NCBI GenBank assembly: GCA_030606265.1
Contig: JAUWGT010000007.1
Location: forward strand, 1-33,023
Direction of reading: 5' to 3'
From: Candidatus Stahliibacteriota bacterium
Lineage (GTDB): Bacteria; Hydrothermota; Tepidihabitantia; SM23-42
Length of the DNA stretch: 33,023 nucleotides
Shown piece after piece: positions 14,235-23,850 of this stretch. The notes under the pieces are model-generated. The model saw only the letters and a program-made list of their open reading frames with translations. It was not told the DNA's origin and did not search any database. How positions within the stretch are numbered: the first letter of the stretch is position 1; each line of letters starts with the position of its first letter. The translations under genes and the position numbers were made by a program.

Positions 14235-14345
14235 TGTAGTGGTCGAGCCTGTCTCGAGTTATGTCGAGAGGCTTGCTCGACGATTATCAGTTTGAGCAGA
14301 CCAAGCCTTCGTCCCGAGCTCAGGCCGAGGGGGTCTGCCACTACA
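14235..14345. repeat. Cloverleaf-type intergenic element (outer stem plus two hairpins)
   Basis: Outer TGTAGTGG (14235-14242)/CCACTACA (14338-14345); inner stems GTCGAGC/GCTCGAC (14242-14281) and GCAGACC/GGTCTGC (14296-14338). Confidence 0.65.
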
Positions 14346-23479: not shown

Positions 23480-23710
23480 GCATGATCGTACAGAGTGATT
23501 GAGTTATTAAGAGACGCTAGAGTGTTGTGATCGTTTAGATCGTTGAACGTTAGTATCGTTATGATCGTTAAAACCGTATTTTATATGGTCTTACGCACTA
23601 CTCATTACTCTCTACTCCTTTTCTTTTGTTCCCGTACTCCGTTACACCGTTACTCCGATACTGTCTATTCAGCGCTATTGTGACTTCCACTCATTTATGA
23701 TTCAATCAAT

Positions 23711-23757
23711 TGTAGTCGCCCGATTTATCGGGCAGTCCAATGAATTGGACGGCTACA
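23711..23757. repeat. Cloverleaf-type intergenic element (outer stem plus two hairpins)
   Basis: Outer TGTAGTCG/CGGCTACA; inner GCCCGAT-TT-ATCGGGC (23718-23733) and GTCCAAT-GA-ATTGGAC (23735-23750). Confidence 0.75.
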
Positions 23758-23822: not shown

Positions 23823-23850
23823 TTGACTTTTGGGTTTTATCGGCTATAAT
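23823..23850 (+). promoter_or_regulatory. Promoter of porGDAB, long leader
   Basis: TTGACT-16-TATAAT; SD AAGGAG just before ATG 23973. Confidence 0.7.

Follow-up and report, generated by a model that had tools for sequence, protein, structure and literature searches.

A head-outward doublet of GTAG-headed REP palindromes between panC and the por operon of an uncultured Stahlbacteria lineage, and its probable partner transposase

RESULTS

Structure of the panC-por element

We analysed a 33,023-nt stretch of DNA (the window) from a fragmented MAG (G000, here the source genome; 2.28 Mb in 193 contigs, 89% complete), whose host is an uncultured Ca. Stahlbacteria/WOR-3 lineage. Between the divergent panC (- strand) and por operon (+ strand) lies, at 23711-23757, the sequence TGTAGTCGCCCGATTTATCGGGCAGTCCAATGAATTGGACGGCTACA, which an earlier sequence-only reading had given with the right letters and position. 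Its siting of the element between these genes, 65 nt upstream of the por promoter, also agrees with the TTGACT-16-TATAAT sequence found there. The features referred to below are as follows.

23711-23757, no strand assigned: whole REPIN, a head-outward REP doublet with flanking T and A (from sequence)
23712-23733, + strand: REP unit 1, GTAGTCG head and 7-bp hairpin GCCCGAT-tt-ATCGGGC (from sequence, the genome-wide family and hairpin covariation)
23734, no strand assigned: 1-nt linker (A) between both REPs
23735-23756, - strand: REP unit 2, inverted, GTAGCCG head and hairpin GTCCAAT-tc-ATTGGAC (from genome-wide copies and the doublet alignment)
23823-23850, + strand: por operon promoter, sigma-70-like (TTGACT-N16-TATAAT), 65 nt downstream from the element, to which it does not belong; listed for context
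14235-14345, no strand assigned: doublet of a second REP family (GTAGTGG heads) with enlarged hairpin loops
Contig C2, 225-638: RAYT gene, 138 aa (P0001), among REPs of the family (from the Y1_Tnp profile, fold and motifs)

The element core spans 23712-23756, or 23711-23757 with the outer T-A pair, and is laid out as TGTAGTCG CCCGATTTATCGGG C A G TCCAATGAATTGGA CGGCTACA. The three-way pairing described earlier was recovered, but an 8-bp outer stem together with two 7-bp hairpins is impossible in 47 nt: G23718 and C23750 are claimed by both the 8-bp outer stem and the 7-bp inner stems, so the earlier counts overlap by one base per side. The element can pair either with 7 outer bp (one T-G) and two 7-bp hairpins separated by a single A, or with an outer stem of 8 bp and two hairpins of 6 bp separated by CAG. 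Energy models widened the 2-nt hairpin loops to 4 nt and gave a three-way DNA fold of -14.6 kcal/mol (z = -3.1 versus shuffles) and RNA folds of -23.7 on the + strand and -19.7 on the - strand. About 0.08 comparable junctions per shuffled window are expected from geometry alone, and the bare cloverleaf is thus only mildly improbable and weak evidence in itself.

A family of GTAG-headed hairpins

A TGTAG-N20-45-CTACA pattern matched more than 12 elements of like plan in the source genome. The repeating unit is smaller than the doublet: a GTAG-T-Y-G head precedes a hairpin whose loop is T-Y. A pattern that left the stem free, GTAGTNGNNNNATTNATNNNNC (GTAGTNG head plus ATTNAT core), gave 93 matches in the source genome and 0 for a reversed-pattern control; the lack of further copies genome-wide had been named as a result that would count against the repeat, and it is these copies that make the element certain. 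All four free stem positions were Watson-Crick paired in 71 of the 93 REPs, with several pair types at each position. Across the genus, REP copies per genome ranged from 79 to 207. The REPs are mainly extragenic, with 26 of 32 lying outside ORFs of at least 110 aa and 6 inside, compared with 28 and 72% of random points, respectively.

Many REPs are solitary, and some follow one another directly in tandem, the period being 35-36 bp. Among 20 inverted neighbouring pairs, 19 were arranged heads-outward ('+-') and one heads-inward ('-+'). The gap between paired REPs is 1-3 nt in tight doublets, which are 44-47 nt overall, and 28-47 nt in the others. The window element is a tight outward pair, and its flanks AATT/GTAG and CTAC/AGCG recur at other copies. 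The strict pattern catches only unit 1, because the head of unit 2 has changed from the family's GTAGTTG to GTAGCCG (retaining GTAG); allowing one mismatch recovers both units. The cloverleaf is best understood as a pair of GTAG-headed REP palindromes, inverted, head-outward and 1 base apart, that is, a REPIN (BIME, HH dimer).

Two other arrangements were noted in the source genome. A tandem array of degenerate REPs with a 35-bp period (L014, C74:2168-2469) has broken stems (ATCCCAC for ATCGGGC) with GTAG heads still present. At C51:4839-4868, TGTAGGGACACGCCATGGCGTGTCCCTACA forms a perfect palindrome that carries GTAG at each end and is similar to the 'double foot' REPs of RAYT subclass 2.4.

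Conservation of the hairpins and of the outer stem

Covariation was assessed in 28 tight doublets (26 distinct) from the source genome and sister species. The inner hairpins were 99.5 and 98.4% paired, with two-sided changes at 8 pairs, and the whole structure held 59 two-sided cells versus 20 in shuffles. In the outer helix, four of the six pairs were invariant, although the doublets were gathered by head-fixing patterns, making head invariance partly a product of construction; for the hairpins, the free-stem pattern backs the result. The sixth outer pair was broken in 24 of the 26 distinct doublets, mostly as C opposite A, because tight doublets are heterotypic, with one head GTAGTCG and the other GTAGTTG. 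In the window copy, GTAGCCG in place of GTAGTTG happens to restore this pair.

The conserved object is thus the GTAG head plus hairpin and not the cloverleaf, since the outer stem is simply the facing GTAG heads, with the sixth pair mismatched in most copies. The sequence-only reading had proposed that structure rather than sequence was conserved and that compensatory changes should be looked for; such changes are present in the inner hairpins, whereas the outer stem does not covary, so the idea holds for the hairpins and fails for the three-way junction as a whole. Conservation of the junction is also contradicted by the many REPs that are single or 28-47 nt apart. The junction is a by-product of two near-identical heads facing apart.

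Presence and absence between species

In a genome of the same genus (G011), the panC-por flanks align at 92 and 95% identity and the REPIN is absent. The spacer there carries more differences than a clean excision would leave, so of the empty site sought at the outset, the missing element was found and an exact empty site was not. Two further genomes (G009 and G010) have no element beside the aligned por-side flank. The site is polymorphic between species. Doublets near-identical to that of the window, save for the changed head, occur at several unrelated loci in G010; this recurrence, taken with the absence from the window site in G011, where there is no clean empty site, may reflect movement of the doublet as a unit.

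A RAYT gene among REPs of the same family

The source genome has nine Y1_Tnp genes. One of them (C2:225-638), found on following up the earlier suggestion to look for a transposase gene, is embedded in REPs of the window REPIN's family, with at least seven intergenic copies around it on contig C2 (at 20, 163, 197, 732, 802, 839 and 877) and one within the gene at 500. This flanking by cognate REPs is the arrangement of a REPtron. Near the other eight Y1_Tnp genes, a search for GTAG hairpins with an ATTYAT core found none of the REPIN's family.

The C2 protein scores 35.7 bits against PF01797 (Y1_Tnp; cut-off 23) and 63 bits (E = 2.7e-17) against NCBIfam REP_Tyr_transpos (NF047646), the latter below the curated cut-off of 80 bits. 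Its top sequence match in the PDB is 4er8, the E. coli TnpAREP, onto which its AlphaFold2 model (mean pLDDT 86) superposes with a TM score of 0.73 and an rmsd of 2.6. It has the HUH and YxxxNP motifs of Y1 HUH transposases: among 43 relatives, the histidines H66 and H68 never vary, and Y121, N125 and P126, of which Y121 lies in the motif YIVNNP, are nearly invariant. We identify the gene as a RAYT from its fold, its motifs and the REPs around it, and not from the NCBIfam cut-off.

At least 20 REPs were found in 8 of 147 genomes of the phylum, all 8 in one family. All five genomes encoding a RAYT at 80% identity or more have at least 27 REPs, against 3 REP-rich genomes among 18 without a close RAYT in the family (Fisher p = 0.0017) and 3 of 142 in the phylum (Fisher 1e-7), values that are inflated by relatedness because the REP-rich genomes all belong to one family and are not phylogenetically independent. 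In the three REP-rich exceptions (G008, G014 and G020; 27-33 REPs each), no close RAYT was detected; the gene may lie in an assembly gap or may have been lost.

REPs within RAYT genes

REPs also lie inside RAYT genes, with 59 in 32 of 51 related genes from many phyla compared with 0.83 expected from synonymous codon shuffles; a few of the 59 are at ORF ends where the exact start or stop is uncertain. The REP in the source RAYT (L024:500-521, on C2) falls at codons 40-47, and 11 genes have one at codons 40-44, before the HuH motif (L024, L092-L095, L097, L103, L107, L111, L121 and L134). The codon-40 REP is always in frame 0 on the coding strand (GTA GTC GCT CGA TTC ATC GAG C, giving VVARFIE) and, in the AlphaFold2 model, lies within a predicted core helix (residues 35-51) ahead of the HuH motif; the RAYTs that carry it are no longer there than relatives without a REP. 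The hairpin alters among relatives by paired substitutions (CGATTCATCG to CAATTTATTG), and three relatives (L098, L101 and L096) have a decayed head or no hairpin. On the RAYT tree, on which REP types were labelled by eye, codon-40 REPs form two groups that stand apart and differ in REP type. One RAYT clade that extends over many phyla has a single REP loop type in 20 of its 21 members, and REP specificity can therefore be traced along the transposase tree.

The in-frame REP at codons 40-47 might be a kept site, the transposase's own recognition hairpin used for autoregulation or self-targeting, with a REP of another type having arisen independently at nearly the same place in Elusimicrobiota RAYTs. 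We consider this unlikely, because a tolerated insertion, or gene conversion with copies outside the gene, explains the in-gene REP as well as selection does.

Other repeats in the window

Of two more elements of the same layout claimed for the window by the sequence-only reading, one related element was located (14235-14345), and a search of the window for a second found none. The located doublet belongs to a second REP family, GTAGTGGTCGAGCttGCTCGAC / GTAGTGGCAGACCttGGTCTGC, of about 16 units in the source genome, which also forms heterotypic inverted doublets (further sites at C121:15030, C159:3993, C189:15794 and C20:1534). A partner RAYT for this GTAGTGG family was not found in the source genome. 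The panC-por spacer also harbours additional repeat families, since short stretches within 23494-23672 (~23494-23560 and ~23625-23672) match many sites in the genus.

DISCUSSION

We put at about 93% the probability that the element is a REPIN (BIME), a non-autonomous pair of inverted GTAG-tagged REPs mobilized in trans by a RAYT/TnpAREP, an HUH single-strand DNA transposase. The early guess of a REP- or MITE-like repeat serving as a RAYT/Y1 substrate is borne out by the copies genome-wide, the presence and absence between species and the RAYT among cognate REPs. In the TnpAREP proteins that have been studied, cleavage needs the GTAG head, which seems to guide the choice of a CT or CA site beside the hairpin (PMC8266576), and a case has been made for the REP doublet as the unit that replicates (Bertels & Rainey 2011, PMC3116915). 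By analogy, each REP would fold when its strand is single-stranded, for example on the lagging-strand template, and RAYT would bind the GTAG head plus hairpin. The putative catalytic Y121 in YIVNNP would then cut beside the palindrome; the doublet would be excised or copied from single-stranded DNA by RAYT and placed elsewhere by strand transfer.

A structured RNA or cis-regulatory junction of panC or the por unit (riboswitch-like or an attenuator), in which the three-way junction is conserved, would account for the good RNA folding on both strands, the covarying inner stems and the nearby por promoter. We regard it as very improbable: the sister species lacks the element in the same intergenic region despite conserved promoter and genes, copies are spread over tens of unrelated loci, the outer stem shows no covariation, and the element is not in the por mRNA because it lies upstream of the por promoter. 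Its absence from the sister species and the lack of outer-stem covariation led us to reject this explanation; an Rfam search of the window gave 0 matches.

There is likewise very little probability that the element is a MITE belonging to a conventional DD(E)D transposase, or that it is maintained for a nuclease or recombinase which recognizes the four-way or three-way junction itself. A short, intergenic, multicopy inverted-repeat element is what such systems would produce, but hairpin units are also found singly and as direct tandem repeats, making the unit GTAG plus hairpin and not a terminal inverted repeat; moreover, the outer stem of the junction is not maintained and the gene among the repeats is a Y1 HUH RAYT. 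Chance pairing without biology deserves almost no weight: the geometry alone, at ~0.08 per shuffled window, is not vanishingly rare, but the 93 family members in the source genome, with 0 in the control, refute it.

The REPIN reading places the element in known company. Like the REPINs of Pseudomonas fluorescens (PMC3116915), these are hairpin-forming inverted REP doublets that are intergenic, multicopy, RAYT-linked and subject to compensatory changes, but those REPINs are longer (the most frequent spacings between REPs being 71 and 110 bp, versus doublets of 44-47 nt with 1-3 nt linkers here) and the host differs, being here an uncultured Stahlbacteria/WOR-3 lineage. The GTAG-tagged HH dimers of Di Nocera et al. 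(2013, PMC3733652), as described in the part of that paper available to us, share the GTAG head, a 6-9 bp stem with complementary variants, a TY loop, head-outward placement 1-5 bp apart and occasional location in ORFs; the Stahlbacteria lineage is not mentioned in that part. The present REP family is a new one of a known kind, likened to the 24 published GTAG consensus families by general features. The RAYT shares with E. coli TnpAREP (4er8) the fold, the HUH motif, a GTAG-headed hairpin as its probable substrate and a putative catalytic Tyr in the C-terminal helix region with the Y---NP motif as for class 2; it differs in having 24% identity and 138 aa, and the E. coli REPs have stems that are longer and bulged. 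For TnpAREP subclass 2.4, in-frame REPs within the RAYT gene have been reported before (Quentin et al. 2018, PMC6006769), for the most part in the stretch from HuH to Y, where many relatives here also have them, whereas the internal REP of the source gene precedes HuH, within predicted helix 35-51, and does not make the protein longer; the likeness is one of in-gene REPs.

For its host, the window REPIN is probably a neutral passenger, since it is situated upstream of the por promoter, in the interval that separates the divergent panC and por promoters, and the sister species does without it. The element also illustrates a trap, in that a seemingly perfect cloverleaf can be merely same-headed palindromes placed back to back. 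The literature search found no report pairing Stahlbacteria with palindromic repeats, and the present system adds a compact REPIN-RAYT pair for the uncultured Stahlbacteria/WOR-3 lineage. With an in-frame REP that changes by paired substitutions within a core helix, whether RAYTs act on their own genes becomes testable.
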